From Opitutaceae bacterium (GTDB taxonomy: Bacteria; Verrucomicrobiota; Verrucomicrobiia; Opitutales; Opitutaceae), in the NCBI GenBank assembly GCA_003151515.1, contig PLXS01000025.1, positions 248,001-312,000 of the forward strand: a stretch of 64,000 bases of DNA, read 5' to 3'. The notes under the pieces were generated by a model that did not search any database, was not told where the DNA came from, and saw only the letters and a list, made by a program, of their open reading frames with translations. The translations under genes were made by a program, and so were the position numbers. Position 1 is the first letter of the stretch. Every line of letters begins with the position of its first letter. Shown piece after piece: positions 20,117 to 43,746 of this stretch.

Positions 20117-21643
20117 ATGGATTTTCCTGACGCCACGACCGAGCCGGACCGTCCGTGGTGGCGGCGCCCGGCGGCGCTCCTCGTCGCGGCGGCCCTGGCG
20201 CTTTACTGCATCCTGCTGGTTGAGGACATCGGCGCGGTGGCGGGGGGCTCGGACTCGTCGGGCTACCTCAATCACGCGCGCCTCCTGTCTCAGGGCCGCG
20301 TGCACCTGCCCGAGCGCGCCATACCCGGCCTGCCCCCGGCGAGCGCGCCGTCGTACCTCTACGTGCCCCTGGGCTTCAGGCCGGCGCGCGACGGCGACGG
20401 CCTCGTGCCCACCTACCCCTCGGGCCTCGCGCTCTTCATCGTCGCCCTGAAGCCCGTGGCGGGCTGGCGGCACGCCGGCGACCTTGTGATCATCCTGCAC
20501 TCGATCGCGGGGCTCGTGGCGACCTACGCCGTCTGCCGGATCCTCGGCCTGGGGCGGCCCTGGGCGCTCCTGGGAGCGGCGCTCGTGGCCGCGAGCCCGC
20601 TGTATCTCTTCATGTCGCTGCAGGCGATGAGCGACGTCCCCTCGCTGTTCTGGACCGCGGCCGCAATCCTGGCGGCCGTCAGGAGCCGCGAGCGGCCCGG
20701 CTGGGCGGTCGCGGCCGGGGCGGCCGTCGCCGTGGACGTGCTCCTAAGGCCCGCAAACCTCCTGGTCGTGGTGCCGCTGGCCGCCGTGCTAGGAATGTCG
20801 CCCCGGCGCTGGATCCTCTTCCTCGCGGGCGGCGTCCCCGGGGCCCTCTACTTCGCGGCCCACAGCCATGCCGCATACGGCAGCTACCTAGCGACCGGCT
20901 ACGGCGACGCGACGCGCTCCTTCCAGGCCGCGTTTGTTCCCGGGACCCTGGCCCACTACGCGAGGTGGCTGCCGGCCCTGTTCACCCCGGTGGTCGTCCT
21001 CGCGCTCGCCCTGCCCTGGGCTCGCGGCGTGCCGCCCTGGGTCAGGTGGCTCCTTTGCCTGTGGATCATCCCCTTTGCGGCCTTCTACTCCGCGTACCTG
21101 TGCACCCACGAGGCCTGGTGGTACCTGCGCTTCCTCCTGCCGATCGCGCCCGCGCTCGTGGCCGGGGCCCTTCTCGTGCTGCGCGCCATCCTCTCGCACG
21201 CCCCCGCCGGCGTCGATCCCGGCCGCTCGGCGGCCGCCCTCGCGGCGGCCCTCGCCCTCGTGGCGCTCTTCTCCGGATGGTGGATTCACAGGCTCAACGT
21301 GTTAAACATAGGCAGGGAGGAGCTTCGCTATGGCCACGTCGCCAGATGGATGCAGGCAAACGTACCGCATGACGCGGTCTGCCTCTCCATGCAGGCAAGC
21401 GGCGCCCTCCTCTACTACACGGATTTCACGATCATGCGCTGGGACATGCTCAACAGGGCCAACGCGGGAGGGGTCGAGGCCGCGATCCGCGCGGCCCACA
21501 GGCCCCTCTACGCCGTCCTTTTCCCGTTCGAGCTGGACGACTCCGGGGCGCTCTCGAGGCACATGCCCGGTGACTGGAAGCAGGTCGGAAGGGTCGACGC
21601 CGTCACCATCTGGCGCCGGGACCTGGACGGCAGGAAACCCTGA
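20117..21643 (+). CDS. GT-C glycosyltransferase family membrane protein
   Basis: A 508-residue polytopic protein. After the first helix comes the loop GGSDSSGYLNHARLL (about residues 43-57), which has the form of the periplasmic acidic loop of PMT/ArnT-like enzymes that use polyprenyl-phosphate sugars. About ten further helices follow, then a soluble C-terminal domain of about 120 residues. ATG 20117 fits the N-terminal cytoplasmic stretch. The next gene, a GT4, starts seven bases after the stop, so both are co-transcribed. Confidence 0.82.
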   Translation: MDFPDATTEPDRPWWRRPAALLVAAALALYCILLVEDIGAVAGGSDSSGYLNHARLLSQGRVHLPERAIPGLPPASAPSYLYVPLGFRPARDGDGLVPTYPSGLALFIVALKPVAGWRHAGDLVIILHSIAGLVATYAVCRILGLGRPWALLGAALVAASPLYLFMSLQAMSDVPSLFWTAAAILAAVRSRERPGWAVAAGAAVAVDVLLRPANLLVVVPLAAVLGMSPRRWILFLAGGVPGALYFAAHSHAAYGSYLATGYGDATRSFQAAFVPGTLAHYARWLPALFTPVVVLALALPWARGVPPWVRWLLCLWIIPFAAFYSAYLCTHEAWWYLRFLLPIAPALVAGALLVLRAILSHAPAGVDPGRSAAALAAALALVALFSGWWIHRLNVLNIGREELRYGHVARWMQANVPHDAVCLSMQASGALLYYTDFTIMRWDMLNRANAGGVEAAIRAAHRPLYAVLFPFELDDSGALSRHMPGDWKQVGRVDAVTIWRRDLDGRKP

Positions 21644-21650: not shown

Positions 21651-22826
21651 GTGACGGCGCCGATTCTCCTCGACCTCTCCCACTCAAGCCACACCCGCGC
21701 GAGGACCGGCGTCCAGCGCGTCGCGCTCGCCCTGCGAAGGGAACTCGGCGAGCGGGCGCTCCCGGTCTGCATGGACCCGTTCGAGGGCGCATGGCGCGCG
21801 CTCGAGGCCTGGGAGGCGGAGAACCTCGCGGCCAGCGGGCCCGCCGGCGGCCGGGGCGCCCGTTGGCCGATCGCCGCGCGCCTGCGCGGCCGCCTGAGGC
21901 GCTGGCGGCGGCGGCCGCCAGCCCTCGGGGCCGCCACGCGCGCGTCCGGCGTCCTTGTCCCCGAGATCTTCTCGCCCGGGGTGGCCGCCTCGCTTTCCTC
22001 CCTGTTCGCGGCCTCGGCCGGGCCCCGGGTCGCGATCTTCCACGACGCGATCGCCCTGCAATTGCCCGAGCTGACGCCGCCGGCGACCGTGGCTCGCTTC
22101 CCGGCCTACCTGGCGGAGCTGCTCCTCTTCGACGGCGTCGCGGCGGTCTCCGAGGACTCGCGGGCGTCGCTCGCGGACTATTGGGCATGGCTCGGCGTGC
22201 GGCGCACGCCCGCCCTTTCGGCTATCACCCTGGGGATCGACCCGGCGCCGGTAACCGCGAAGGCCCCGGCGGCCGCGGTGCCGACCATCCTCTGTGTCGG
22301 AAGCATCGAGGGGAGGAAGAACCACGCCGCGCTGCTGGACGCCTGCGAGGCGCTTTGGGCCGGGGGGGCCCGCTTCGAGCTGCGCCTCGTGGGGCTTGCG
22401 AACAGGCAGACCGGCGCCGCGGCGCTGGAGCGCATCGGGCGCCTGCGCTCGGCGGGGCGGGCGCTCACCTACGACGGGGCACTCGGCGACGAGGCCCTCG
22501 ATGAGGCCTACAGCCGCTGCGCGTTCACGGTCTACCCGTCGCTCGCCGAGGGATTCGGTCTTCCGGTGGCGGAGAGCCTCACGCGCGGAAGAGCCTGCCT
22601 GTGCAGGACATCCGGAGCCCTCGGTGAGATAGCCGCGGGAGGCGGCTGCCTTGGGATCGGCGCGGCGGGCGCGGCCGACATTTCAAAGGCGATCAAGCGC
22701 CTGCTGGACTCGCCTGCGGACCTTGCGGCCCTCGGCGCAGCGGCCACGAGCCGCCGCTTCAAGACCTGGGGGGCATATACGGCCGAGCTCCTCGGCTGGA
22801 TGTCCACGCTCAACCGCAACGCATAA
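21651..22826 (+). CDS. Family 4 glycosyltransferase, mannosyltransferase-like
   Basis: A 391-residue GT4 protein. The N-terminus LLDLSHSSHTRARTGVQRV resembles mannosyltransferases of O-antigen loci, and the donor-binding block SLAEGFGLPVAESLTRG (about residues 293-309) is intact. LCVGSIEGRKN marks the start of the second Rossmann domain. I chose GTG 21651, seven bases after the upstream stop and preceded by GAGG; the frame is open further upstream but that part is a shadow of the GT-C gene. It closes the polysaccharide region; about 100 non-coding bases follow before the lipid locus. Confidence 0.87.
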   Translation: MTAPILLDLSHSSHTRARTGVQRVALALRRELGERALPVCMDPFEGAWRALEAWEAENLAASGPAGGRGARWPIAARLRGRLRRWRRRPPALGAATRASGVLVPEIFSPGVAASLSSLFAASAGPRVAIFHDAIALQLPELTPPATVARFPAYLAELLLFDGVAAVSEDSRASLADYWAWLGVRRTPALSAITLGIDPAPVTAKAPAAAVPTILCVGSIEGRKNHAALLDACEALWAGGARFELRLVGLANRQTGAAALERIGRLRSAGRALTYDGALGDEALDEAYSRCAFTVYPSLAEGFGLPVAESLTRGRACLCRTSGALGEIAAGGGCLGIGAAGAADISKAIKRLLDSPADLAALGAAATSRRFKTWGAYTAELLGWMSTLNRNA

Positions 22827-22923: not shown

Positions 22924-24120
22924 ATGGCGATCACCTTTTTCCTGAAGAACAAGAAACCCATCCTGGGGCGCTGCAGCGAGGACTACGCGACCAAGATGCG
23001 GCTCAGGTACGCGCCGTTCTACCACGCGATGGATGCCCAGAAGGGCACGACCATTCACCTGGACGGCCGGGAAATGATCATGCTCTCGAGCAACGACTAC
23101 CTCGGCCTGTCCTTCCACCCGAAGGTGATCGAGGCCGGCCGCGCGGCGCTCCTGAAGTGGGGGACGAGCACCACGGGCGCTCGCCCGTCGAACGGGTCGA
23201 GGACATGCCATCTTGAGCTCGAGCAGAAGATAGCGTCGTTCCTGGGCCGCGAGGCCTGCCACGTCCACTCGGCGGGCTACCTCTCCTGCCTTTCGAGCGT
23301 CGCCGCGTTCGCCCAGAAGGGGGACGTCATCCTGGCCGACAAGAACGTCCACTCGTGCCTCTGGGACGGCATCCGCCTGTCCAATGCGACGGTCGAGCGC
23401 TTCTCGCACAACAACCCGGACGACCTGAGGGAAGTGATCGCCGCCGCGAACCCGCAAGCCCCGAAGATGCTCGTCATCGAGGGCGTCTACTCGATGGAGG
23501 GCCACATCGCGCGCCTTCCGGAGCTCACGGAGATCGCCGAGGAGAACGGCTGCTTCACGGTGCTCGACGACGCCCACGGCTTCGGCGTGCTCGGCCGGCA
23601 GGGGCGCGGCACGGTCGACCACTTTGGCTTGAACGACAGCGTCGACGTGATCTGCGGGAGCCTCTCCAAGTCGCTCGCGAGCACCGGCGGGTTTGTCGCG
23701 GCCTCGAAGGACGTGATCGACTTCCTCAGGACGCATTCCAAGCAGACGATCTTCAGCGCGGCGATCAGCCCGAGCCAGGCGGCCGTCGCCCAGGCCTCGC
23801 TCGAGCTCATGCAGACCGAGCCTCAGCACCTGGAGATGCTCTGGTCGAACACGAAGAAGTACCGCGCCATCCTCAAGGGCCTGGGCTTCGACATCTGGGA
23901 GAGCGAGACGCCCGCGGTGCCGATCGTCCTCGGCTCGAAGGAGCGCGTCTACCCGTTCTGGAAGGCCCTCCTCGAGAAGGGGATCTTCACCGTCATGGCG
24001 ACGTCGCCGGCGGTGCCCGCGGGCAAGGACCTGATCCGCACCGCCGTGTCGGCCATGCACACGGACGAGCAGCTTGAGAAGATAGCGGCCGCGATGGCGT
24101 ACGCCGCGAAGAAGCTCTAG
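22924..24120 (+). CDS. Serine-palmitoyltransferase-like alpha-oxoamine synthase
   Basis: A PLP enzyme that condenses an amino acid with an acyl thioester, 398 residues. The PLP lysine is K249 (GSLSKS), the ring-nitrogen aspartate D215 and its partner H218 lie in LDDAHGFG, and the stacking histidine is H143. The spacings 72 (H to D) and 34 (D to K) equal those I recall for Sphingomonas serine palmitoyltransferase. The tail FSAAISPSQAAVAQ, LWSNT and ATSPAVPAGKDLIR also follows bacterial SPT more than BioF or Kbl, as does NGS where BioF has SG. No biotin genes are near. The stop overlaps the stop of the convergent GT4. The most likely reaction is serine plus acyl-CoA/ACP to 3-keto-sphinganine; the substrate is inferred. 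Confidence 0.85.
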   Translation: MAITFFLKNKKPILGRCSEDYATKMRLRYAPFYHAMDAQKGTTIHLDGREMIMLSSNDYLGLSFHPKVIEAGRAALLKWGTSTTGARPSNGSRTCHLELEQKIASFLGREACHVHSAGYLSCLSSVAAFAQKGDVILADKNVHSCLWDGIRLSNATVERFSHNNPDDLREVIAAANPQAPKMLVIEGVYSMEGHIARLPELTEIAEENGCFTVLDDAHGFGVLGRQGRGTVDHFGLNDSVDVICGSLSKSLASTGGFVAASKDVIDFLRTHSKQTIFSAAISPSQAAVAQASLELMQTEPQHLEMLWSNTKKYRAILKGLGFDIWESETPAVPIVLGSKERVYPFWKALLEKGIFTVMATSPAVPAGKDLIRTAVSAMHTDEQLEKIAAAMAYAAKKL

Positions 24121-25142
24121 GGCGCCCGCAGGGCGGCCCGGATCGCCGACGCAGCCTCGGCCCACGTTGGCAGCGCCCTGGAGGCCGCCTCGGCCGACAG
24201 GCGCGACGCGTGGGCGTCGTCGGTGAGGATTCGCCGCAGGGCTCCCACCCAGCCCTCGCGGGCGTTGCCCCGCACCAGCTCGCAGCCCCCGCCCAACGCG
24301 CTCTCGGCCAGCGCCGCGATGTCGCTGCAGACGCAGGGTACCCCCATCCAGAGCGACTCGAGCAGCGGCAGGCCGCAGCCCTCGGCGATAGACGCCATCG
24401 CCGTCGCGCGGGCGGAGCGCACGAGGTCCGCAAGCTCGCCGTCCGACAGCTGCCCGTGGCGGCGAAGCGCCGGGTCCCGGGCGCCGATCCTGTCGGCGCG
24501 CTCCTTTATCGCCCCGCCGAAGTGCGGGTTCACCCGGCCCACCAGGTGAAGCTCAAAGTCCAGGCCCTGGCCGCGCAGCTCCTCGAAGGCGTCCAGGAGC
24601 ACGCCCTGGTTCTTCCTGGGCTCGAGGATGCCGACCGAGACGATGCGCGGCCTGCCCCCGGCGGGCGCGCCGGCCCCCCTGCCCCGCGCAACGCCCGGCC
24701 AGTCCGCCCCGAGCCCGATCACCTCGACCGGCGGCGGGGCCGCGACCCTCTGCCACTTCCAGAACCCGAGGAGCTCCTCGCGGCTCGCGCGCGACACGGC
24801 CCAGACCCTGTCGAAGCGCGAAAGGAGCTTCATGTAGCCCGGGTGCCTGCGCACGCTCTCGGGCCACGTGATCGCGGGGTGCTTGATCGGGATGGCGTCG
24901 TGGTAGATGGCCGCAAGCCCGCAGGGGCGCGAGTCGACGAACGCCGAGAAGCCGTGTCGCTCCTCGTCCGAGAAAAGCTCAGGCGTCAGCAGCCAGTCCC
25001 CCGGGCCGGCCGCCCCGCGGGGCGCCGGCCACCGCACCTGCCTGGCGCTGCCGCCCAGCTCGTCCGCGAGCCTCGCGCTAACCCTCGAAAGCCCCGAGCC
25101 GTGCCGCCACCGCGAGGCGTTGGTCGTGTCGAAGAGGATCAT
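24117..25142 (-). CDS. Family 4 glycosyltransferase
   Basis: A 341-residue GT4 enzyme with the usual second-domain start VSVGILEPRKNQG and the donor site ASIAEGCGLPLLESLWMG (about residues 252-269). The N-terminal part (LFDTTNASRW, YHDAIPIKHP) resembles the + strand GT4 at 21651, so the two may be related. It overlaps the upstream GT4 by four bases (ATGA) and is the last gene of the minus-strand lipid operon. Its stop overlaps that of the SPT-like gene on the other strand, so the two units converge with no spacer. Confidence 0.86.
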   Translation of the reverse strand: MILFDTTNASRWRHGSGLSRVSARLADELGGSARQVRWPAPRGAAGPGDWLLTPELFSDEERHGFSAFVDSRPCGLAAIYHDAIPIKHPAITWPESVRRHPGYMKLLSRFDRVWAVSRASREELLGFWKWQRVAAPPPVEVIGLGADWPGVARGRGAGAPAGGRPRIVSVGILEPRKNQGVLLDAFEELRGQGLDFELHLVGRVNPHFGGAIKERADRIGARDPALRRHGQLSDGELADLVRSARATAMASIAEGCGLPLLESLWMGVPCVCSDIAALAESALGGGCELVRGNAREGWVGALRRILTDDAHASRLSAEAASRALPTWAEAASAIRAALRAP

Positions 25143-26350
25143 GGCGCGGCGACGGCCGCCAGGCGGCTGAGGAGGCGCTCCGTGTTCTTCCTGACGTCGA
25201 AGTTCTCCTCAACCCAGCCGCGCGCCGGCCTCCTGAGCCTCTCGCAGTAGGCGTCGTCCGTGGAGAGCCTGCGCAGCGCCGCGACCCAGGCCTCCGGCCT
25301 GTCGACCGCCAGCACGATCCCGGTGACGCCGTCGGTGACGGCCTCGGTCGTGCCCGCCGCCGGGGACGTGACGACCGGCACCCCGGCCGCCATCGCCTCG
25401 GCGATCACGTTTGGCAGGCCGTCCCGGTCGCCGCTCGCCGCCACGACGCCCGTGTGCAGGAGCACGTCCGCCCAGTCCAGGTGCTCCCAGACCTCGTGCT
25501 GGGGGACGTGGCCCGTGAAGGTCACCAGGTCGGCCACCCCGAGCGTCCCCGCCATGTGCTCCAATTGCTGGCGCAGCGGCCCGTCGCCGACAACCCTGGC
25601 CCTGAACTCGACGCCCGACGCGCGCATCGCGGCGTATATCCTCAGCTGCCTGTCCAGGCCCTTCTTCTCGACCAGGCGCGCAAGCGAGAGGACGTGCAGG
25701 GGGACGCGGGAGGCGCGAAGCGGCTTGACCGCCGGGAGCCTCTCCAGGCCGCTGCGGATGCACACGACCTTGCCTGCGCTGATCCCCCGGCTGACCAGGG
25801 CGTCGCGGGCGAGATCGGTCGAGGTGTGCACGAGCAGGGCGGCCTCGAGCTTCTCCAGCAGCCACCAGTCACCACCGTGCTCGAAGACGTCGTAGGCGTG
25901 CGCCCCCGCCGTGAACCGGTGGCCGTCAAGGCGCCACAGGAGCCACGCGGCGGTCGCGGGGGCGCCGCTCCAGGCGGCGTGGATGAGCGCCGGGCGTCTC
26001 CTCCGGTAGGAGCGGGCGTAGAGGCACGCGAACCCGGCCCCGAGCATGTTCTCCCAGAAGTTGAGCCACGAGGGCGCGCGACGCGTGAGGAGCCCGTGGA
26101 GCAGCTGGCGGAGGACGTCGGGGCGCCGCCACGACTCATAGGGGATCAGCCAGAGGAGCTCGAGGAGCCTCCACTTGTTGAGGGTCTCCACCTCGACGCC
26201 CCGGAACACGCCGCCCCCGCCCCACATCGAGTGGATGCGCAGGCGAACGCCGCGCTGCCTCAGGGCCGCGATCTCCCTCTGCAGGAACATCTCGGTCGCC
26301 TTCGGAAAGGTGGTGAACAGGTACGTGATCTCTAGCTCGTCGGAGTTCAA
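25139..26350 (-). CDS. Family 4 glycosyltransferase
   Basis: A 403-residue GT-B protein. The N-terminus ITYLFTTFPKATEMFLQREI is typical of GT4 proteins of the colanic-acid WcaL/exopolysaccharide type; VLSLARLVEKKG opens the C-terminal domain and RDGLPNVIAEAMAAGVPVV carries the donor site. The start must be TTG 26350 or later, since an in-frame stop lies five codons upstream; no clear Shine-Dalgarno is visible. It is coupled to the next GT4 by a four-base overlap. It probably extends a glycolipid head group built by the GT28 upstream. Confidence 0.85.
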   Translation of the reverse strand: MNSDELEITYLFTTFPKATEMFLQREIAALRQRGVRLRIHSMWGGGGVFRGVEVETLNKWRLLELLWLIPYESWRRPDVLRQLLHGLLTRRAPSWLNFWENMLGAGFACLYARSYRRRRPALIHAAWSGAPATAAWLLWRLDGHRFTAGAHAYDVFEHGGDWWLLEKLEAALLVHTSTDLARDALVSRGISAGKVVCIRSGLERLPAVKPLRASRVPLHVLSLARLVEKKGLDRQLRIYAAMRASGVEFRARVVGDGPLRQQLEHMAGTLGVADLVTFTGHVPQHEVWEHLDWADVLLHTGVVAASGDRDGLPNVIAEAMAAGVPVVTSPAAGTTEAVTDGVTGIVLAVDRPEAWVAALRRLSTDDAYCERLRRPARGWVEENFDVRKNTERLLSRLAAVAAP

Positions 26351-26421
26351 TCGCGGATGACTCTACACGGCCCCGGGGGGCCGCGGAAAGAAACTTTGTC
26401 GCCCGCGCCGCCGCGCCCGCC
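26351..26421. repeat. GC-rich inverted repeat between GT28 and GT4 genes
   Basis: The gap holds a perfect inverted repeat (CGGCCCC, two bases, GGGGCCG) at about 26369-26384. There is no T-run on either side, so I do not call it a terminator; it could slow transcription, stabilise RNA or be an accident of GC-rich DNA. Confidence 0.3.
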
Positions 26422-27648
26422 CTAGCGGATCCCGCTGAACGACGCGTGCGAGTGCAGGCTGAATGGCTGACGCACCGGCTTCTCCTCGGCGACCGAGCTC
26501 GCGAGGTCCACGAGCTCGTCGATCAGTATCGTCGGGTCCTCCTCGTAGCGCAGCCTCAGGAAGTTCTCGCGCATGCGGTTGTAGGCCTCCGGGTCCGCCA
26601 TCCAGACGCCGACGATCCGGTCGAAATCCGCTCCGCCGTCGATCTTGTCCGAGGCCGCGCCGTTTCGAAGGTACTTCCAGGTGAGTTCCTCCTGGGGCAT
26701 GATCCCGCCCAGGGCGTTGAAGATGATCGGGCACTTGAAGTGGAGCGCCTTCGCGGTCGTTGTCGTGCCGCCGCGCGTCACGATGACGTCGCTCACCTGC
26801 ATGAGCAGGTGGACGACCTCGGAGTAGCCCTCGATGTAGCAATTGAACTCCGGGTGGTTGGCCCTCCAGTGCATGAGCTCGTTATAGGCCTGCTTGTTTC
26901 GGCCGCAGATGACGATCGCCTGGCAGCGGTCGGACCTCTTCACCAGGGCAGGCAGCAGGTCGAAATGGTTGTTTGCGCCGTTGCCGCCCGTCGCAAGAAA
27001 GACCGTGAAGAGGTCCGGGCGCAGGCCGAGCCTCTCCTCCCGGAAGGCGCCCCTGTCCGCCGGCCCTATGACCTCGTAGTGGGCGCGGGGCTGCATCAGG
27101 TAGCCGCGCACGCGGGCCCTCTCCTTCGGGATCCCCTTTTTTATCGCGTAGTCCTGGGCGGTCGTGGTCCTCGAGAAGTACATGTCCACCGACGGCTCAA
27201 TCCAGTTGCGCGAGTACCCCCAGCCCCCGGAGAACTCCCCGCAGTACGTGGCGCAGGTGACGTTGTCGTGCCCGAGGATCTTGCGCGCCAGCTGGAAGTA
27301 GCCCCGGTTCAGGCAGTCGTGCACGCTCAAGACAAGGTGCGGCCTGTACTGGCGCAGCACGTTCATGTAGTAGCGCCTGCCGAACGTGACCGTGTTCTTG
27401 TTGAGTATGCTCTGCAATTCGACGAACGCGTAGAAGGCCTTGTGGACCCAGGGCGCACTCGCCTGGATCTTGTTGTAGAAGTTGACGTTCACCCTGTTGA
27501 AGAGCGACGACTTCTCGAGCATCTGCTCGATGCGCACGTCGACGTCGTGGCGGTAGAGCTGGAAGCACCAGTCCGCGAACGCCTCCGCGCGCGCGTCGTG
27601 GCCCCCGCCGGTGCTGGAGGTGAGTACGAGTATCCTGACTTTCGACAT
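26422..27648 (-). CDS. MGDG-synthase-like glycolipid glycosyltransferase (GT28)
   Basis: A 408-residue protein joining an MGDG-synthase N-terminal domain (TSSTGGGHDARAEA at residues 10-23, as in plant MGD and Bacillus UgtP) to a GT28 C-terminal domain (RGGTTTTAKALHFKCP, then MPQEELTWKYL). Enzymes of this class move a galactose or glucose from UDP-sugar to a membrane lipid. In this operon the acceptor is more likely the product of the SPT/KAS genes than diacylglycerol, but that is inference. I chose ATG 27648, which puts the glycine loop at its normal place. The SDR gene ends 16 bases upstream. Confidence 0.9.
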   Translation of the reverse strand: MSKVRILVLTSSTGGGHDARAEAFADWCFQLYRHDVDVRIEQMLEKSSLFNRVNVNFYNKIQASAPWVHKAFYAFVELQSILNKNTVTFGRRYYMNVLRQYRPHLVLSVHDCLNRGYFQLARKILGHDNVTCATYCGEFSGGWGYSRNWIEPSVDMYFSRTTTAQDYAIKKGIPKERARVRGYLMQPRAHYEVIGPADRGAFREERLGLRPDLFTVFLATGGNGANNHFDLLPALVKRSDRCQAIVICGRNKQAYNELMHWRANHPEFNCYIEGYSEVVHLLMQVSDVIVTRGGTTTTAKALHFKCPIIFNALGGIMPQEELTWKYLRNGAASDKIDGGADFDRIVGVWMADPEAYNRMRENFLRLRYEEDPTILIDELVDLASSVAEEKPVRQPFSLHSHASFSGIR

Positions 27649-27664
27649 GGGCCGCGCTCGCTGT

Positions 27665-28489
27665 TCAGACGCCGAAGTACGCGGCCGTCCCGCGCCTCTT
27701 GAGCGAGGAGGGAACAAGCCGGCCGAGGACCGGCGCCACGCGGGCCTGGAAGAAGGAGCCCGAGCGGACGATGCCGCTCCTGTTGCGAAGGAGCGCGCGC
27801 CGCAGGTCCGCCGCAGCCCTCTCCGGCGGCGGCGACGACGAGAACATCGCGTCGAGGCGCGCCCAGACGCGCCGGGTCGTGTCGTTTTGAGGTCCCATGC
27901 GGATGGTTCTGTTGAAATCGGTCCTATAGTCTCCCGGCCGAAAGTCGATGACGGTGATGGCGCTGCCCCGAGACTCGAACGCCAGGCTCTCGCTGAGCGC
28001 CGACAGCCCGGCCTTGGCGACGTTGTAGCCGCTCATGTACGGGATCGGGAACTCGGCCGCGATCGAGGAGATGTGCACGAGGCAGCCGCGCCCGCGCCCG
28101 CGCATCGAGCGGTAGGCGGCGTGGCTGATCTCGAGGACGCTGCCAAGCATGCCCTCGATCTGCGCCCTCCAGGCCGAGGCCTCGACCTCGCCGAAGTCGC
28201 CGTAGAGCCCGTAGCCCGCGTTGTTGACCACGAGGTCGAACGCCCCGCCAGCCGCGGCGCTCGCCGCGGCGAAGGCCGAGACCGCGCCCCGCCCGTCGGC
28301 CAGGTCGAGGGCGAGCGGCGTGAAGGCTCCCGGGGGGCCGGCGCAAAGGCCCGCCAGGCGGGCCGGGTCCCTCGAGGTGCCCCAGACACGGACGCCCTCG
28401 GAAAGGAGCATCCGGGCGAAGGCCCGCCCGAGCCCGGTGCTTGCGCCCGTGACGAAGGCCGTGGCGTGAACCTGGGAGAGGCGGGCCAT
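27665..28489 (-). CDS. Classical short-chain dehydrogenase/reductase
   Basis: A 274-residue SDR with every catalytic feature: GASTGLG (residues 15-21), NNAG (89-92), Ser 142, Tyr 155 and Lys 159 (YNVAK). The start ATG overlaps the stop of the ketoacyl synthase (TGATG), so they are co-translated. In this operon it is a good candidate for the ketone reductase, either of 3-keto-sphinganine (as human KDSR, also a classical SDR) or of a beta-ketoacyl-ACP. Sequence alone does not decide between them. Confidence 0.88.
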   Translation of the reverse strand: MARLSQVHATAFVTGASTGLGRAFARMLLSEGVRVWGTSRDPARLAGLCAGPPGAFTPLALDLADGRGAVSAFAAASAAAGGAFDLVVNNAGYGLYGDFGEVEASAWRAQIEGMLGSVLEISHAAYRSMRGRGRGCLVHISSIAAEFPIPYMSGYNVAKAGLSALSESLAFESRGSAITVIDFRPGDYRTDFNRTIRMGPQNDTTRRVWARLDAMFSSSPPPERAAADLRRALLRNRSGIVRSGSFFQARVAPVLGRLVPSSLKRRGTAAYFGV

Positions 28490-29748
28490 CAGCTGCGCCT
28501 GAGCAGAATCGCGACGTTCGCCCCGCCGAACCCGCTGCTGTTCTTGAGGACGACCTTCGGGGCGCCCGCGCGCGTCGCCCGCAGAATGTTCAGGCTCTCG
28601 CAGGCGGGGTCGAGCCGGCTGATGTGAGCCGAGCCGGCGACGAACCCGTCGCGCATCATGAGGCAGCAGAAGCCCACCTCCATCACCCCGGCGAGCGAGA
28701 GGCCGTGGCCGGTCAGGGCCTTCGTGCTGCTGACCGCGGGACGGGCCCCCTTGTCCGTGAAGACGGACCTGAGGGCGCGGGCCTCCGACACGTCGCCGAT
28801 CACGGTCGACGTCGCGTGGGCGTTGACGTAGTCGACCTCGCCCGGCGCGATCCCCGTGGCCGCGAGGGCGTTTTCCATCGCCATGCGCGAGCCCGTCCCG
28901 TCGGGGTGCGATATCGCGACATTGTACCCGTCGGAGGCCTGGCCCCATCCCACGAGCTCGCAGTAGGCCGGCACGCCCCTGCGCTCCACCTCCGCCTCGC
29001 TCTCGAGGACCGCGACGACGCCCCCGCCGGTCCCGACGAACCCGTCGCGGCCGAGGTCGAATGGCCGCGAGGCGATGTCCGGGTCGGTCTGCAGGGAGAG
29101 CGTCCTCATTCCGGCGAACGGGAGGATGGCGTCCCGGTTCCCGTCCTCGCCGCCGACCACGAACATGCGCTTCTGGCGGCCGACCGAGATCTCCTCGAAG
29201 GCGTACGCGAGCGCGTGCGCCGACGACGCGCACGCCGAGCTGAAACCGCAGGAGGCCCCCTGGATCCGGAACGCCGCCACCAGGTTGAAGTTGAGGGTCC
29301 CGACTATCGAGGCCACGATGCCCAAGGGCGAGCAGCGCGCCGGCCCGAGCCTGAGCATCCTTTCGTGGTGGAAGTACGTGAGCATCGGCGAGCCGCCCGA
29401 GGCCGCGAAGAGGCCCGTCTCCCTGTTGGAGATGTCCGCATCGGCGAGCCGGGCGTCCCGCACCGCCTGCATGAACGCGCAGTGAGCGTAGAGGCCGTGG
29501 GGGGCCATCGAGCGTATCGTCTCCCTCTTGATCGAGTAGCCCTCGGGCCAGGTCCAGTCCTCGGGATCCGTGGAGTCCGTGTGGAAGCCCCTGATCGGGC
29601 CGGTCACCTTGCAGGCGATGTCGGGCTTCTGGAACGGCGCGAAGAGCTCGAAGCCGTGGCGAAGGGCGCGCAGGTTTGCGGCTACCGCGGCGGAGTCGTT
29701 TCCGATGCTGGTAATGAAACCGAGTCCGGTGATGTAGACCTTGGGCAT
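28489..29748 (-). CDS. Beta-ketoacyl-ACP synthase (KAS I/II type)
   Basis: A 419-residue condensing enzyme with the complete Cys-His-His triad: C173 in SACASSAHAL, H311 in NAHATST and H348 in TKALTGHG (with K343). The Ala in NAHATST instead of the usual Gly, and the 40-residue divergent N-terminal half, set it apart from housekeeping FabF. I chose ATG 29748 (MPKVYITG) as the natural start of the fold. It lies between the ACP-dehydratase fusion and the SDR, so this operon carries a dedicated elongation set: synthase, reductase, dehydratase and carrier. Confidence 0.9.
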   Translation of the reverse strand: MPKVYITGLGFITSIGNDSAAVAANLRALRHGFELFAPFQKPDIACKVTGPIRGFHTDSTDPEDWTWPEGYSIKRETIRSMAPHGLYAHCAFMQAVRDARLADADISNRETGLFAASGGSPMLTYFHHERMLRLGPARCSPLGIVASIVGTLNFNLVAAFRIQGASCGFSSACASSAHALAYAFEEISVGRQKRMFVVGGEDGNRDAILPFAGMRTLSLQTDPDIASRPFDLGRDGFVGTGGGVVAVLESEAEVERRGVPAYCELVGWGQASDGYNVAISHPDGTGSRMAMENALAATGIAPGEVDYVNAHATSTVIGDVSEARALRSVFTDKGARPAVSSTKALTGHGLSLAGVMEVGFCCLMMRDGFVAGSAHISRLDPACESLNILRATRAGAPKVVLKNSSGFGGANVAILLRRS

Positions 29749-29803
29749 GCTCTTTGGGCGGGCTGCCCGGCCCATCGTGACGGCCCCCCCGATCCGGTCA
29801 ATC

Positions 29804-30772
29804 TCAGGCGTTGATCGCCACGCGAAGCGGCGGATTGGCGTCGCTGTCGGCGGCCGGCTGCGCCGTGCCGTTGACGGCGGACGGCTCGACGGCGGCCTCG
29901 ACGTAGGCGAAGGTGAGCGTGATGTCCTCCGCGATCACGGCCTTCTCCTGGCCGACGCGGATGGCGCCCTCGAACGTGGCGAGCGGCATCTTCATGCGCT
30001 TGGACTTGATCGAGAGCGTGAGGATGTCGCCGGGCTTGCACATGCGGTGCGCCCGCACCCCCTCGCATCCCGTGAAGAAGATCGTGTTGGCCCCGATCGC
30101 CTTGCCGGGCTCGGTGGTCGCGCCCTCGAGCAGGAAGAGGACAGCCAGCTGTCCCAGGGCCTCAAGCATGATCGACGCCGGCATGATCGGGTTGTCCTTG
30201 AAATGGCCCTGCAGGAAGAACTCCTTGCCCGTGATCTTGTACTTGCCGTTGGCGCCCGTCGAGCTGACCGAGGCCTCGTTGAGGAACAGGAACGGCGGCT
30301 GAACCGGCATGACGGAGCCGATGTGCTCGATCGGCAGGAACTTGGTCGGCCGCGGCAGAGGCAGTCCACGGATCTTGCAGTCTATGAAGGTCTTTACGTC
30401 ACCGACCGTGCGCAGGTTGCGCAGCTCGTCGTTGTTGATGGACAGCTGCAGCACATCCTCCACCAGGATGACGATCTCCATCATGGTGAGCGAGTCGATC
30501 CCCAGGTCCTCGATCAGGCGCAGGTCGTCGTCCGCGTCCTTGAGCTTTGAGCGCAGGTCGGGCTCCACGAAGCGCTCGATGACGCCGATCACCACCGCGG
30601 GCATGTGCTCGGGATTGCCCGTCTTGCGAAACTGCACCGCAGCCTCGAAGGTCGACGGGGAGCATCGCTTCAGGGCCTCCCTCAGGGCGGCCTCGTCGTC
30701 CGGCGCAAACGGCTTGGTTGCAATCGGAAACGGCTTATTTGAGCTCAAGCTGGGTTGGTAGGTTTCAGACAT
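29804..30772 (-). CDS. Acyl carrier protein fused to FabA/FabZ-type hotdog dehydratase
   Basis: The 322 residues contain two domains. Residues about 55-135 form an acyl carrier protein with the phosphopantetheine serine S94 in LGIDSLTMMEI. Residues about 145-300 form a hotdog dehydratase with H190 (QGHF) and E204 (MLEALGQ); the 14-residue spacing equals that of FabZ, so it is probably active. The first 50 residues and the Ala/Pro tail look disordered. The ATG at 30772 has GGGAG seven to eight bases upstream; an upstream frame to 30904 is intergenic. It leads the minus-strand lipid operon. A covalently linked carrier and dehydratase would keep the acyl chain away from general fatty-acid synthesis. 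Confidence 0.88.
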   Translation of the reverse strand: MSETYQPSLSSNKPFPIATKPFAPDDEAALREALKRCSPSTFEAAVQFRKTGNPEHMPAVVIGVIERFVEPDLRSKLKDADDDLRLIEDLGIDSLTMMEIVILVEDVLQLSINNDELRNLRTVGDVKTFIDCKIRGLPLPRPTKFLPIEHIGSVMPVQPPFLFLNEASVSSTGANGKYKITGKEFFLQGHFKDNPIMPASIMLEALGQLAVLFLLEGATTEPGKAIGANTIFFTGCEGVRAHRMCKPGDILTLSIKSKRMKMPLATFEGAIRVGQEKAVIAEDITLTFAYVEAAVEPSAVNGTAQPAADSDANPPLRVAINA

Positions 30773-30955
30773 CAGTCGCTCCCTATATGTTACGGTGGCA
30801 AATAAAGTAAATTCATTTCTTAGGACACGCGAGGAGCTTAAAAGCACCCCTTGTGCCGCAAAGGGATGGGAACAATAGGGGAATGGGGGCGTACCGGTAA
30901 CCATGCTTGAAATCCACGCTTCCCAGCTGTTAGCCTTCGCATTCCAACCCGCTCA
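30773..30955. promoter_or_regulatory. Divergent intergenic region of the lipid locus
   Basis: About 180 non-coding bases separate the ACP-dehydratase gene (minus) and a GT4 gene (plus). The part next to the fusion gene (about 30780-30845) is clearly AT-rich against the GC-rich surroundings, which suits a promoter. I could not fix convincing -35/-10 pairs; a TTGAAA at about 30905 is a possible -35 for the plus strand. Confidence 0.4.
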
Positions 30956-32113
30956 ATGAGCGCATCTTCAATCACTAAGCCTTCGTCGCCCCTCTATCTC
31001 ATCACGCATGAGTTCTACCCGGTGAGCGGGGGGATAGCCACTTTCGCCGAGGAAATTGCAAAGGCCTCCGCCGGCCTGGGCTACGACGTGGAGGTGTGGG
31101 CGCAGTCGGCGCCGCCCGAGCGCGAGAAGAAATGGCCCTTCCGGATGCGGCGCCTGCCGCTCAAGGGGACGCAGGACCTCACCTGCCAGATCCGCCTGGC
31201 CCGGGAGCTGATCGCCTGCCGCAGGCAGCTGCGCCACGCCACGGTCTACATCCCGGAGCCCGGCCCGATGCTGACGATGATGTTCCTGCAGTTCTTCCGG
31301 GCGTTCAGGCCCAAGCGCCTGATCCTCACCTTCCACGGCACGGAGATCCTCTCCTTTTCGAGCAGCCCGCTTCGGCGCTGGCTGGCCGGCCGCCTGATCC
31401 GCCACGCAAGCCGCGTGAGCACGCTCACCACCTACACCCAGGAGCTCCTGCTCGAGCGCTTCCCGCACGCCGCCGACAAGATCTTCCTCACCCCCGGGGC
31501 GCTGCGCACGGACTTCGCCGTCGTGCCCCCGCGCGCGGACCGCGCAAAGGACAAGATCGTCGTGCTGACGGTCGGGCGCCTGCACCCGCGCAAGGGCCAG
31601 CTGATCACGCTCAAGGCCCTGCAGATGCTCCCGGGCGCGGTGAAGGGCCGCATCGAGTACTGGATCGTCGGCGGGCGCAACTGGGGCAACTACGAGGAGA
31701 AGCTGCGCGAGCAGGCCGGCTCGGACCCCGCGCTCAACGTGCGCTTCTTCGGTAACATCCCCGACGAGGAGCTGGCCCATGTCTACGACCGCTCGGACAT
31801 CTTCGCCCTGACAAGCGTCAGTCACGGGACAAGCGTCGAGGGGTTCGGCCTAGTCTACCTCGAGGCGGCGGCGCACGCCCTGCCGATCATCGCCCACAAC
31901 ATCGGCGGCGTGTCGGAGGCTGTGCGCGACGGCGAAACCGGCCTCCTGGTGACGCCGGACCGCCCCGCCGAGCTGGCGGCGGCGTTCGAGAAGCTCTTCC
32001 ACGACGGCGCGCTGCGCCGCAGGCTCGGCGAGGCGGGCCGCGCCTTCGCGGCGCGCAACTGCTGGGAGGAGAACGCGTCGACCCTCTTCGCGTCGGCGAA
32101 CGATCAGGCATGA
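30956..32113 (+). CDS. Family 4 glycosyltransferase, PimA-like
   Basis: A 385-residue GT4 enzyme: LITHEFYPVSGGIATFAEEI at the N-terminus, VLTVGRLHPRKGQ at the domain border and SVEGFGLVYLEAAAHALP for the donor site (about residues 302-319). The overall look is that of lipid-directed transferases such as PimA/PimB, which fits the lipid locus. The last codons overlap the start of the thioesterase gene by four bases (ATGA), tying a sugar transfer to an acyl-thioester function. It is transcribed away from the ACP-dehydratase fusion. Confidence 0.88.
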   Translation: MSASSITKPSSPLYLITHEFYPVSGGIATFAEEIAKASAGLGYDVEVWAQSAPPEREKKWPFRMRRLPLKGTQDLTCQIRLARELIACRRQLRHATVYIPEPGPMLTMMFLQFFRAFRPKRLILTFHGTEILSFSSSPLRRWLAGRLIRHASRVSTLTTYTQELLLERFPHAADKIFLTPGALRTDFAVVPPRADRAKDKIVVLTVGRLHPRKGQLITLKALQMLPGAVKGRIEYWIVGGRNWGNYEEKLREQAGSDPALNVRFFGNIPDEELAHVYDRSDIFALTSVSHGTSVEGFGLVYLEAAAHALPIIAHNIGGVSEAVRDGETGLLVTPDRPAELAAAFEKLFHDGALRRRLGEAGRAFAARNCWEENASTLFASANDQA

Positions 32114-32511
32114 TCCGCTCGCGGGTCCAGCTGACGGTCCGCTACGCCGAGACCGACATGATGGGCATTGTCTATCATGCGAACTACCTGCCGTGGTTCG
32201 AGGTCGGCCGGACGACGCTCATGCGCGAGCTTGGGCTGCCCTACCGCAAGCTCGAGGAGGCGGGCTTCCGGCTGCCGGTCCTGGAGATGTCCGCCAAGTT
32301 CATCAGGCCCGCCCTCTACGACGACACGATCGAAATCGTTACGACGCTGCGCGAGAAGCCGCTCGTCAGGATCCTTCTTGAATACGAGGCCCTGCGGGGC
32401 GGCGAGCTCCTGGCCACCGGGACGACGCTCCACGCGTTCGTCGACCGCAACGGCCGGCCCGTGCGCCCGCCCCTTTGGGCCTCGCAGACGCTGGCGAAAG
32501 CCTTCGCCTAG
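32110..32511 (+). CDS. YbgC/FadM-type acyl thioesterase
   Basis: A 133-residue single hotdog domain of the 4-hydroxybenzoyl-CoA-thioesterase family. The signature VRYAETDMMGIVYHANY holds the catalytic Asp 16 and His 23. Members hydrolyse acyl-CoA or acyl-ACP; some (YbgC) associate with phospholipid synthesis and the Tol-Pal system, but no tol genes are here. Its four-base overlap with a GT4 in the lipid locus suggests release or proof-reading of the acyl chain made by the KAS/ACP set. Confidence 0.87.
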   Translation: MIRSRVQLTVRYAETDMMGIVYHANYLPWFEVGRTTLMRELGLPYRKLEEAGFRLPVLEMSAKFIRPALYDDTIEIVTTLREKPLVRILLEYEALRGGELLATGTTLHAFVDRNGRPVRPPLWASQTLAKAFA

Positions 32512-32586: not shown

Positions 32587-34848
32587 ATGACCATCAAAAC
32601 CCTCGGCGGCCTTGCCGCCGCAACGCTTCTCATCCTGTGCGCAGCCCCCCTCGGCGCCCAGACCCCAACCGCCGCCCCGCTCGGGGCCTTCACCCAGTGG
32701 GAGAAGGCCGAGTTCCGCCTGGACGGAGTCCCGAGCGCGGCCAACAACTTCGACCCCGAGCAGATCGCCGTGGACGCGACGCTCACCTCGCCGTCCGGGG
32801 CAACGCAGGTCGTCCCGGCCTTCTGGTTCCAAGACTACACCCGCGACTCGGCCTCCCGGTCGGAGTCCCTGAAGGCCGTGGGCGAGCCGTCGTGGCGCCT
32901 GCGCTACACGCCGACCGAGTCCGGCACCTACCGCCTGGCGGTGCGCTGGCGGGTGGCGGGCGCGGACGCGCCGGGAGCGATCGAGACCTCCTTCGAGGTT
33001 GCGCCGGGGCGCGACCCGTCGCGCGCCGGCTGGGTGCGGGTGGCCCCGGACAGGCGTTTCTTCGAGACGTCGGACGGGCGGCCGCTGCACCTCGTGGGCG
33101 AGAACGTGTGCTGGCCCGAATCGGGGGGCATCGCCGACTTCGACCGCTGGTTTGAGCGCATGGCGGGCGCGGGCGAGAATTACGCCCGCATCTGGCTATG
33201 CCCCTGGTGGGCGGGCCTCGAGCACAAGCCTGGCACGCTCAACCGCTACCCCCTGGACGAGGCCTGGCGGCTCGACCACGTGTTCGAGGAGGCCGACCTT
33301 CGGGGCATCTACCTGCTGCTCAGCCTGGACCACCACGGGATGTACCAGGTCGACAACAAGAGCTGGGGCGGGCACAACAACTTCTGGGCCACGAACCCGT
33401 ACAGCAAGGTCCAGGGCGGCCCCTGCGAGGCGCCGAACGACTTCTTCACGAGCCTCGACGCCCGGGCGATCTACGAGAAGCGCCTGCGCTACCTGGTCGC
33501 TCGCTACGGCTACAGCCAGCGCCTGCTCGCTTGGCAGTTCTTCAACGAGATCGACAACGTGTTCGAGCGCGGGCTCAACGGCGCGGACGTGATCGCGTGG
33601 CACCGCGAGCTCGGCCGGTGGCTCAAGGCGCACGACCCCTACGGGCACCTGGTGACGACCAGCCTCACGGGCAACAGCGACCGGCCGGAGATGTGGAGCA
33701 TTCCCGAGATGGACTTCTCCGACTACCACTCCTACTGGGAGCCCGCCCCGGGCAAGCGCCTCGCCGCCCTTTCGGAGGACTTCGTCCACCGCTACGGCAA
33801 GCCCGTGCTCATCGACGAGTTCGGCGTCAGCGCCGCCAGCTGGAAGCTCGACACCGACCCGTACCTGCGCGGCTTCAGGCAGGCCCTGTGGTCCTCGGCC
33901 CTCGGCGGATCCGTCGGAACGGCGATGCCCTGGTGGTGGGAGGACATGGACAGGGACAACGTCTACACCCTCTACTCGGCCCTGAGCCGCGTCCTTGACG
34001 GCGCCGGCTGGCAGCAGGGCCGCTGGGAGCCGGCCAGGGTCGTGTCGCCCGGGTCCACGCCGACCGAGCTCGGCCCCGAAAACCCCGACGCCGAGGTGTT
34101 CGACGCCTCGCTCGCGCTGACTGGCGCCGGCCGCCGACTCAGGCTCAGCGGCCTGGCCGCCATCGCGTCGCCGCTCGCGGCCGAGAGGTCGTCGGAGGAG
34201 CTCTCGCGCTACCTGTACGGGTCTCGCTACCCAGAGCTCTCGCACGCCGATACGATCGTCGCCAGCTTCGCCAAGGGGGGCCGCGTGAGCGTGCGCGTCA
34301 GCGCGTCGGCCTCCGAGAACGACATCGTGATTAGGGTCGCCAGCTCCCAGATCGCTCGAATGCACTTGGCAAAGGCGGCGCCCCACGACGGCGCGCCCGC
34401 GGAGCCCGCCGGCGAGCTGACGGCCGAGGTCCCCGAGGGAAGGCAGGAAATCGAGATCGCGAACCTGGGAGAGGACCAGATAACCCTGGACTCCGTGCGG
34501 CTGCAGCGCGTGCGCGCCGTCGGCTTCAAGGACGGCTGGAACTTCGAGCCCGAGGTGGCGGCCCTCGAGAGCGGCGCCAAGGCCGTCGTCTACGTGACCT
34601 CGCCCTGGGTGGTCTACCCCGCGGGCGCTCTTCGCTACAACCCGGCGATGCTCAGGGGAAAGAGCGTGACGCTGCTCTCCTGGCCCGACGGCCCGGTCGA
34701 GGCCCGCTGGTTCTCCACGCTCGACGGGAGCCAGCGCGAGGTCACCCGGGCGCGCGCGGTGGGCGGGACGGTCTCGGTCCCCATACCCCCCTTCAACGAG
34801 GACATCGTGGGCGTCGTGCAGTCCGCTCCCGGGGCGGGCGCCCGGTAG
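32587..34848 (+). CDS. Secreted DUF5060-type clan-A glycoside hydrolase
   Basis: A 753-residue exported enzyme. Residues 1-25 are a signal peptide (LLILCAAPLGAQ). Next comes a DUF5060-type beta domain (about 35-140), then a TIM barrel with the acid/base Glu in QFFNEID (about residue 320) and the nucleophile Glu in LIDEFG (about 410), as in clan GH-A. The C-terminal 250 residues are beta-rich and may bind carbohydrate. It is followed, convergently, by glucuronate isomerase, so a uronic-acid-containing polysaccharide is a plausible substrate, though DUF5060 enzymes act on several glycans. Confidence 0.85.
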   Translation: MTIKTLGGLAAATLLILCAAPLGAQTPTAAPLGAFTQWEKAEFRLDGVPSAANNFDPEQIAVDATLTSPSGATQVVPAFWFQDYTRDSASRSESLKAVGEPSWRLRYTPTESGTYRLAVRWRVAGADAPGAIETSFEVAPGRDPSRAGWVRVAPDRRFFETSDGRPLHLVGENVCWPESGGIADFDRWFERMAGAGENYARIWLCPWWAGLEHKPGTLNRYPLDEAWRLDHVFEEADLRGIYLLLSLDHHGMYQVDNKSWGGHNNFWATNPYSKVQGGPCEAPNDFFTSLDARAIYEKRLRYLVARYGYSQRLLAWQFFNEIDNVFERGLNGADVIAWHRELGRWLKAHDPYGHLVTTSLTGNSDRPEMWSIPEMDFSDYHSYWEPAPGKRLAALSEDFVHRYGKPVLIDEFGVSAASWKLDTDPYLRGFRQALWSSALGGSVGTAMPWWWEDMDRDNVYTLYSALSRVLDGAGWQQGRWEPARVVSPGSTPTELGPENPDAEVFDASLALTGAGRRLRLSGLAAIASPLAAERSSEELSRYLYGSRYPELSHADTIVASFAKGGRVSVRVSASASENDIVIRVASSQIARMHLAKAAPHDGAPAEPAGELTAEVPEGRQEIEIANLGEDQITLDSVRLQRVRAVGFKDGWNFEPEVAALESGAKAVVYVTSPWVVYPAGALRYNPAMLRGKSVTLLSWPDGPVEARWFSTLDGSQREVTRARAVGGTVSVPIPPFNEDIVGVVQSAPGAGAR

Positions 34849-34878
34849 GCGCCCCCTTTCCCCGGGTCCGGCGCCCTA
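34846..34878. terminator. Possible bidirectional hairpin between convergent genes
   Basis: An inverted repeat with GGCGCC arms (34848-34853 and 34870-34875) and nearly matching flanks spans the two stop codons of the glycoside hydrolase and uxaC. It has no T-run, so a terminator role is only suggested by position. Confidence 0.35.
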
Positions 34879-36300: not shown

Positions 36301-36358
36301 AATTCGAAGGCAAAAAAATCTGGGCCCCGAGGGCCGGTGGGATTCGCCGATTCTCTGT

Positions 36359-36622
36359 TTATTGTTGGGCTGGTCGGTTCTGATTACACGCTTTAACTCC
36401 GTGAAGGTCCGCTACGCGTTCAGGTTTTGCCCGAGCGCTCCCCAGAGGCGCTTGCTCGGCAAGACCCTCCGATGTGTCCGGCATGTCGACAATCGGGCAC
36501 TTTGTTTGAGGAAGGACAACCACGCCAAAGAGAAAGCGAAGGTTGGCTTTTCCCGGATTCATGCACGGGCTGGCCGGAATGCGAACCGCGTTGTCCAGCA
36601 GGAAGCGGTTGATGGGCCTCAT
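36359..36622 (-). CDS. Small ORF or gene remnant after the SDR gene
   Basis: An 87-codon frame starts at ATG 36622, only 17 bases after the SDR stop, and has an excellent Shine-Dalgarno (AGGGAGG, six bases before the ATG). The first 20 or so codons end almost always in G or C, as real genes here do (protein MRPINRFLLDNAVRIP). The rest loses this bias. This looks like the 5' end of a gene whose remainder has been lost or replaced, or a short leader peptide. I recognise no family. The remaining bases of the gap (36301-36358) show nothing notable. Confidence 0.35.
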   Translation of the reverse strand: MRPINRFLLDNAVRIPASPCMNPGKANLRFLFGVVVLPQTKCPIVDMPDTSEGLAEQAPLGSARAKPERVADLHGVKACNQNRPAQQ

Positions 36623-36639
36623 CCGAAGCCTCCCTCTGC

Positions 36640-37428
36640 TCAGATGCTCATGGCATTGTAGCCGCCGTCGACGACGACCTCCGAGCCCGTGATGAAGGAG
36701 CCCGCGGATGCGCTGGCGAGGAGCAGCGCCGCGCCGACAAGCTCGCGCGCCTGCCCGAAGCGCGCCATCGGCGTGTGCCCCATGATGCTGGCGACGCGGT
36801 CCGGCGTCATCACCTTGCGGTTCTGCTCCGCCGGGAAGAAGCCGGGGACGAGCGTGTTGACGCGCACGCGCTTCGGCGCCCACTCGCGCGCCAGGTTCTT
36901 CGAGAGGTTGTGCACCGCTGCCTTGGTCGCCGAGTACGTGAAGACGCGCGACAGGGGCACGATGCCCGACTCGGAGCCCACGTTGATGACGGAGCCGCCC
37001 TCCCCCTTCTCGACCATGTGCCCCCCGAGGACCTGGCACCCGAGGAACACGCCCTTCAGGTTGACCCTGACGATGCGGTCGAACTCGTCCTCGGTGACCG
37101 CCAGGAAGGGCGTGGACGAGTTCACCCCGGCGCCGTTGACGACGATGTCCAGGCGCCCGCTGCGCGCGAGGACCGCCTCAAGAAGCCCCTCGAGGTCGGC
37201 CCTGCTCGTCGCCTCGGCGGCCTGGAACCAGGCGCGTCCGCCGCCGGCGCCTATCCGCTCCAGGCGGGCATGCGCCTTCTCCGGGTTGCGCCCGACGAGC
37301 ACCACCTCGGCGCCCGCCAGGGCAAGGCCCTCGGCGATCGCCCCGCAGAGCTCGCCGGTGCCGCCCACGACGACGGCCACGCGGCCGGAGAGTCCGAAGA
37401 GGTCCTTGAGGAAGTCATCATTTTTCAT
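36640..37428 (-). CDS. SDR oxidoreductase, probable fructuronate/mannonate reductase
   Basis: A 262-residue classical SDR. The cofactor loop is [13 protein letters not shown] (about residues 20-32), the active site has Ser in NVGSESG and Tyr/Lys in YSATK, and the tail [12 protein letters not shown] is typical. SDRs of this kind replace UxuB as D-mannonate oxidoreductase in many bacteria, and the position between an ExuT-like transporter (four-base overlap) and uxaC supports that. Gluconate 5-dehydrogenase activity is an alternative. Confidence 0.85.
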
Positions 37429-39038: not shown

Positions 39039-39103
39039 ACTTGCCGCACGTTTCCACTGAAAACGAACCCCGGGTCGCGGCCGCAGCCGCAGCGCGGGCC
39101 CCC

Positions 39104-40201: not shown

Positions 40202-40213
40202 GCCCGTGCGGCG

Positions 40214-43742: not shown

Positions 43743-43746
43743 GGTG

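Follow-up and report, generated by a model that had tools for sequence, protein, structure and literature searches.

A putative envelope-lipid gene cluster around a serine palmitoyltransferase-like enzyme in Opitutaceae

Does an enzyme of the serine palmitoyltransferase (SPT) type that stands among genes for chain building and sugar transfer belong to a ceramide pathway, or to a pathway of its own? The question is raised by a locus at positions 22,924 to 32,511 of a 64,000-nucleotide stretch (the window) of contig PLXS01000025.1 from an Opitutaceae bacterium (assembly GCA_003151515.1, Verrucomicrobiota). A first-pass annotation had described there an SPT-like alpha-oxoamine synthase (AOS), convergent with an operon of lipid and sugar genes, and a divergent pair of glycosyltransferase and thioesterase genes, and had read the whole as one set for a glycosylated sphingoid-type lipid. 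Gene set and layout were borne out: all genes named are intact open reading frames (ORFs) with the expected Pfam domains and a GC content at third codon positions (GC3) of 0.89-0.95. That the locus is a conserved envelope-lipid cluster around an SPT-clade AOS, uncoupled from the known bacterial ceramide enzymes, is in our judgement evenly balanced between right and wrong. Such a cluster may make an unusual sugar-bearing membrane lipid.

The AOS (22924-24120, plus strand; 398 aa, with K249 as the lysine that binds pyridoxal phosphate, PLP) is SPT-like by tree, fold and active-site residues, in agreement with the first-pass annotation. Its best two NCBIfam models are SPTs, with other AOS families scoring closely behind, and the closest solved structures, both by sequence and by fold, are SPTs as well. 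The TM-score was 0.91-0.92 against the enzymes of S. multivorum (3a2b/8guh) and S. paucimobilis (2jg2), at 39% and 33% identity, respectively. The AOS has N57, H143, S190, D215, H218, K249 and R372, none of which varies in the alignment of homologues (14/14 sequences), and its fold has the PLP lysine, the stacking histidine, the Asp/His pair and the carboxylate arginine expected of an SPT. All of N52, H138, S185, H213, K244 and A274 of the S. multivorum SPT, whose active-site roles were taken from an excerpt of PMC10196870, have counterparts in the AOS, and R372 maps by alignment to Arg376, given as the carboxylate arginine of SulA in an excerpt of PMC9304779. In a 36-row tree, 17 opitutal AOS formed one clade (100/100) on the SPT side (99/95), apart from KBL and ThAOS. 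A first tree, which also held the very long branch ph_L072 that was left out of the second, was similar. The 36-row tree was built without BioF, ALAS, CqsA and SulA, and its SPT references were the two solved SPTs and two plasmid AOS, from Roseomonas and Parabacteroides, whose records give no more than a general aminotransferase name and which were labelled SPT from their context. The amino acid used would most likely be serine.

Two observations weigh against this placement. The AOS stayed below every NCBIfam SPT cut-off (377.8 vs 640, 348.8 vs 500 and 280.3 vs 670 bits), and a second AOS of one relative (G186), linked to a gene for a bacterial ceramide synthase (bCerS)-like protein, was placed on the KBL side, on a long branch of unsure position. 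The low scores would suit an enzyme that is functionally not an SPT and uses another amino acid, e.g., alanine or glycine, to give a 1-deoxy or amino-ketone lipid. So would the side-chain pocket, where A79 of S. multivorum (C133 of human SPTLC1) corresponds to T84 and S81 to A86, and the SPT motif GTFSKS (PMC10196870, in part), which was not found in the AOS; it reads GSLSKS there and GS[LMF]SK[SA] in the homologues. In these respects the AOS departs from the two solved SPTs, with which it shares the common fold, the side of the tree and the PLP and substrate-carboxylate residues. However, the A79 position is Asn in the S. paucimobilis SPT and hence variable among true SPTs, so that variation at T84 does not exclude serine. 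Moreover, N57, H143, S190 and R372 are kept, and by alignment mapping the cysteate-transferase lysine (SulA Lys281) was not found but is Ala279, invariant in 14/14 sequences. We therefore regard an SPT-clade enzyme of non-SPT function as very unlikely. For want of the diagnostic lysine, a sulfonolipid (cysteate, SulA/CapA) reading was rejected. A housekeeping KBL was rejected too, since the host has a separate KBL that scores 522.3 bits to E. coli KBL.

The AOS is accompanied across genomes by a fusion of an acyl carrier protein (ACP) with a FabZ-type dehydratase (29804-30772, minus strand; Pfam). Distribution was surveyed in a main sample of 387 genomes of the phylum and in an overlapping smaller sample of 57 genomes, the host's own included. 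In the main sample a wide gap separated 45 AOS orthologues (E<=1.1e-176) from 12 other AOS matches (E 1.2e-121 to 3.1e-102), and thresholds were set at E<=1e-170 for orthologues and E<=1e-25 for the ACP-FabZ profile. The profile matched 51 of the 387 genomes, namely 45/45 with the AOS and 6/342 of the others (G051, G055, G056, G209, G274 and G311), counts that are not phylogenetically independent and for which a Fisher p is not meaningful as a probability. Among the matches, ACP and dehydratase were two neighbouring hits in G337, and G204 was counted by its ACP part alone. In genus g49, two genomes have both genes and two have neither, and outside the order the three genomes with the AOS (G063, G131 and G303) are the three with the fusion. 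In the smaller sample, 43 genomes had the AOS at an identity of at least 58%; two of these matches were partial. There, one genome that is 50% complete (G052) had the AOS without a good ACP-FabZ match, and ACP-FabZ, fused or split, occurred without the AOS in G003, G006, G022, G051, G055 and G056, where G003 and G006 may reflect contig ends. That, at these thresholds, the AOS was never found without ACP-FabZ in the 387 genomes, while the reverse was seen, fits an AOS that uses the product of this chain-building line. The co-occurrence of neighbours in Verrucomicrobiota that the first-pass annotation had proposed as a check was thus found, and it recurs in another order; its view that a dedicated ACP and chain-building enzymes accompany the AOS held as well.

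The fusion opens a minus-strand operon in the order ACP-FabZ, beta-ketoacyl-ACP synthase (KAS, 28489-29748), short-chain dehydrogenase/reductase (SDR, 27665-28489; 274 aa, ATG at 28489; Pfam adh_short), a GT28-type glycosyltransferase of the MGDG-synthase/UgtP-like kind (26422-27648), GT4c (25139-26350, with an unsure TTG start) and GT4b (24117-25142), with KAS and both GT4 genes assigned by Pfam. Gaps are short or overlapping; the SDR start overlaps the KAS stop by one base, and GT4b meets the AOS tail to tail with a 4-base overlap. The chain-building proteins keep their catalytic residues: ACP S94 and FabZ H190/E204 are intact and invariant in an alignment of 11 homologues, and KAS C173/H311/H348 are invariant in 12/12. 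The fusion starts with N-terminal helices, and its predicted model (mean pLDDT 77.6) contains a FabZ-fold domain. ACP and FabZ domain were also seen as separate adjoining genes in several genomes (L080 8476-11517, L082 8667-9508, L202), suggesting either that two adjacent genes fused or that the fusion came apart into them. The GT28 protein reached 29.0 bits on Pfam MGDG_synth, over the cut-off of 25, and 88.4 bits on the NCBIfam diglucosyl-diacylglycerol synthase model, below the cut-off of 500.

Two further gene pairs flank these genes. GT4d (30956-32113, plus strand; Pfam) and a 4HBT thioesterase of the YbgC/FadM/MenI-like kind (32110-32511, plus strand; Pfam and NCBIfam) diverge from the operon start. 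Upstream of the AOS, on the same strand and absent from the gene list of the first-pass annotation, are GT4a (21651-22826; PF00534), which ends 97 bases before the AOS and stands beside it in part of the loci, and a membrane protein that looks GT39-like by eye (20117-21643), kept near the AOS in part of the family.

Gene order in relatives showed how far this arrangement is kept. Ranked by ACP-FabZ match, the best 80 of 304 loci carry names of Opitutaceae, Opitutae/Opitutia, Opitutus, Cephaloticoccus or, at higher rank, Verrucomicrobia, and the eight closest of them (87-91% identity) are metagenome-assembled genomes of Opitutaceae, which agrees with an Opitutaceae-like host. Where room was left upstream of ACP-FabZ, GT4d and the thioesterase were found in 74/74 named loci; where at least 8.5 kb was available downstream (51 loci), KAS was found in 50, GT28 in 50, GT4c in 38, SDR in 34 and the AOS in 28. 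Seen from the AOS, 28 of 45 fetched loci (L195, which overlaps L176, was not counted) have at least one of GT4c, GT28, KAS, ACP-FabZ, SDR and GT4d, and 18 have KAS or ACP-FabZ. Outside the family a core gene was found in 7/16 AOS loci. As a linkage control, all 113 window ORFs of at least 250 aa were searched in these 16 loci. GT4c was the most persistent neighbour (7 loci), followed by GT28 and ACP-FabZ (4 each), KAS, GT4a and GT4b (3 each), SDR (2) and GT4d (1); GT4a and GT4b resemble one another, and one may be labelled as the other in such comparisons, and the GT28 match in L175 may be a related glycosyltransferase. The other recurring ORFs were frames antisense or out of frame to the AOS, and a GT2 gene (11578-12813) in two loci. 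G303, from another order of the class, keeps the AOS, GT4c, GT28, SDR, KAS, ACP-FabZ and GT4d within ~14 kb (L176, L195); G131 has ACP-FabZ, KAS, SDR and GT4c within ~14 kb of its AOS.

Several observations weigh against a single pathway. The 100% complete genome G056 has GT4c-GT28-KAS-ACP-FabZ and no orthologous AOS, so the glycosyl and chain module has a use without the AOS. Three genomes of genus g44 (G055, G209 and G274) have ACP, dehydratase and KAS without the AOS, and so has G051, where a stand-alone FabZ and KAS are followed by a Kdo transferase (L083 9245-12280). In G038 the ACP-FabZ/GT4c pair lies near LpxK. These two neighbours hint at a link to lipopolysaccharide (LPS). Furthermore, 17/45 fetched AOS loci showed none of the core genes, at least one of them being cut by a contig end, and the SDR was not found in 17 of the 51 named loci with room downstream. 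Two independent pathways could share one envelope island, the module furnishing an acyl chain and sugars to a glycolipid of LPS-like or glycerol type, and the AOS using ordinary acyl-ACP to make an amino lipid. This arrangement would account for these cases and for a gene of the GT9 heptosyltransferase type that lies close to the AOS in outgroups (L064, with the same group in other loci), but the distribution of the two genes speaks against it: in the main sample the AOS lacked ACP-FabZ in 0/45 genomes, the incomplete G052 of the smaller sample being the sole exception. Moreover, LpxC was present in 10/10 genomes tested, two of them without the fusion; lipid A can thus be made in its absence, which weakens a lipid A role of the fusion as the only FabZ. 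We consider two separate pathways possible, if somewhat doubtful. The claim of a single amino-lipid set in the first-pass annotation is supported as far as co-occurrence goes and challenged by the module of G056; a sugar head of two to four residues and one product with all these parts stay suppositions.

Other SPT-type AOS related to this one, some from the same phylum, have a bCerS-like acyltransferase gene as direct neighbour. An ordinary ceramide pathway would combine a plain SPT with an unrecognised N-acyltransferase and a 3-ketosphinganine reductase encoded elsewhere, giving the usual glycosylated ceramide. The SPT-clade placement is in keeping with it, as is the nearest sister of the opitutal AOS in the 36-row tree, a plasmid AOS of Rubrobacter (95/91) whose operon also contains bCerS-like and CerR-like genes. 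The SDR class includes KdsR-type reductases as well, and the window SDR scored 88.7 bits on the KdsR model, against a cut-off of 400. As bCerS candidate we used a GNAT protein from a Roseomonas region that holds ACP, AOS, CerR-like and AasR-like genes, a name given for its GNAT membership and its position next to the AOS and CerR-like gene rather than for a match to the characterized protein. This query gave no match in the host genome (92% complete), and among 11 near-complete genomes it matched only G186, next to a different, diverged AOS. Within 174 sequences (173 loci and the window), bCerS-like proteins were found in 5, all beside other AOS. A profile of six bCerS-like proteins matched 38/387 genomes but only 5/45 with the opitutal AOS (G099, G128, G186, G206 and G402), never adjacent to it, being on a different contig or, in G186, 1.9 Mb away. 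By contrast, it matched 10/12 genomes with other AOS matches, and in 9 of these genomes the match was no more than 5 kb from that AOS on one contig (Fisher p 3.7e-6 for 5/45 vs 10/12, from lineages that are not independent). The Roseomonas CerR-like query found in the host a weak best match (E 1.3e-11, 32% identity) in the broad extended-SDR family, and AasR was not found at E 1e-6 in the 174 sequences, a search of loci and window rather than whole genomes. An ordinary ceramide pathway is, on this evidence, unlikely. What stands of the (glyco)sphingolipid locus in the first-pass annotation is the SPT-like AOS with its linked neighbours; a bCerS-like partner was not found in the host, nor in 40/45 sampled genomes. 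PF04339 had also been tried, as a guess at the bCerS family; it is absent from the host, and this says nothing on bCerS, since the Roseomonas candidate proved to be of GNAT type.

Since the AOS of this clade branch among AOS with a bCerS-like acyltransferase next door, the simplest history is a change of partners: an SPT-type branch seems to have exchanged bCerS and CerR for dedicated chain-building and glycosyl-transfer enzymes. It would offer a naturally occurring example of an AOS whose acyl donor and downstream partners both seem to have been replaced. Outside Verrucomicrobiota, the closest relative in the 36-row tree is the AOS of Rubrobacter radiotolerans, whose plasmid operon of AOS, bCerS-like and CerR-like genes (L212 438-12437) lies close to CRISPR genes. 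G186 has its opitutal AOS and, immediately adjoining a bCerS-like acyltransferase, the second and diverged one (L220 7977-10237).

For a cluster uncoupled from ceramide synthesis, the following route can be proposed. The fused ACP would carry the growing chain and KAS would elongate it; the SDR, or a housekeeping reductase, would reduce the chain and the fused FabZ domain would dehydrate it, giving a dedicated long acyl-ACP. The AOS would form a PLP aldimine with its amino acid, condense it with this acyl-ACP and release CO2. The resulting 3-keto long-chain amine would be converted by a reductase to a sphingoid-type base, to which GT28 and the GT4 enzymes would then add sugars. We infer that the AOS takes its acyl groups from the cluster ACP, that the SDR acts either on the chain or on the ketone, and that the AOS product is the acceptor of the sugars; the N-acylation state of that product and the kinds of sugar belong to the same inference. 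In its most specific form the proposal is that a core envelope glycolipid of the family and related bacteria is built on a sphingoid-type base free of N-acylation, the SPT-type enzyme having shed its ceramide synthase and been rewired to a private ACP-FabZ/KAS/SDR line, with GT28 and GT4 enzymes glycosylating the base. This version is offered tentatively, as a possibility.

Known systems offer partial parallels. The rhodobacterial ceramide system AasR-CerR-AcpR-SPT-CerS is described for Caulobacter in excerpts of PMC11324152 and PMC9386255, and Caulobacter requires Spt, bCerS and CerR according to parts of PMC11087976 and PMC11324152. The Roseomonas plasmid region, which was matched here to this system, resembles the window in that its SPT-type AOS has a dedicated ACP and glycosyltransferases for neighbours. 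The window differs in its ACP-FabZ fusion, accompanied by KAS and a classical SDR, and AasR is missing from the 174 sequences and bCerS and a convincing CerR are missing from the host. A precedent for an ACP-fed AOS is AcpR, as rhodobacterial SPTs favour a specialized acyl-ACP (PMC9386255, in part). The cysteate acyl-ACP transferase SulA likewise uses acyl-ACP (PMC9304779, in part); it is similar to the window AOS as an AOS of SPT fold and differs at Lys281. An AOS paired with dedicated chain-building machinery is also known from SgaAB of Pseudomonas fluorescens MYb115, a pair of polyketide synthase (PKS) and AOS that makes sphingolipids with PKS-derived sphinganine, as an excerpt of PMC12134224 has it. 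Whereas SgaAB relies on an iterative type I PKS, the window has discrete ACP-FabZ, KAS and SDR together with glycosyltransferases, kept across the family and beyond. In rhizobial lipid A, the AcpXL/FabZXL/FabFXL cluster provides the very-long-chain acid. Compared by description only, it shares with the window a dedicated ACP, FabZ and KAS for one envelope lipid, and differs in having no AOS. No description of the present gene set was found among titles and abstract openings in the open-licence PMC literature.

According to an excerpt of PMC11334938, bCerS is located in a cluster beside SPT and CerR, 22 Verrucomicrobiota metagenome-assembled genomes from the Black Sea have Spt-like proteins, and a clade rule is used for ceramide sphingolipids. 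Such a rule, by which an SPT-like gene stands for ceramide, would count the present type of AOS as a ceramide maker if it falls inside that clade, as its genomes are mostly without a ceramide synthase. Our reading clearly predicts what the membranes of Opitutaceae and related bacteria should contain; isolate names place these bacteria in peat, lakes and groundwater.

Minor observations concern the surroundings of the cluster and a paralogue. On host contig C38 (L074, 4258-10000), a stand-alone paralogue of the cluster ACP domain has as neighbours an ECF sigma factor, a gene that looks FecR-like by eye, and a TonB-dependent receptor; because of the sigma factor and receptor it was dropped as a candidate for the other half of the pathway. 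L075, L076 and L077 show the sigma-FecR-receptor set too, whereas L078 does not. In the window, QueG-like and shikimate-kinase-like genes (42609-44268; named by eye) come only after ~10 kb beyond the thioesterase (32587-42469, including the glucuronate isomerase UxaC and an MFS transporter), although they directly follow it in L045, L051, L058, L060 and others; the intervening stretch looks like an insertion of sugar-acid genes. Finally, a class-III aminotransferase gene was found near SDR and KAS in G131 (L194 9506-10768, by Pfam) and, from the same group, near GT28 in G204 (L186 13053-14276), and might modify the sugar or the lipid of the same pathway.

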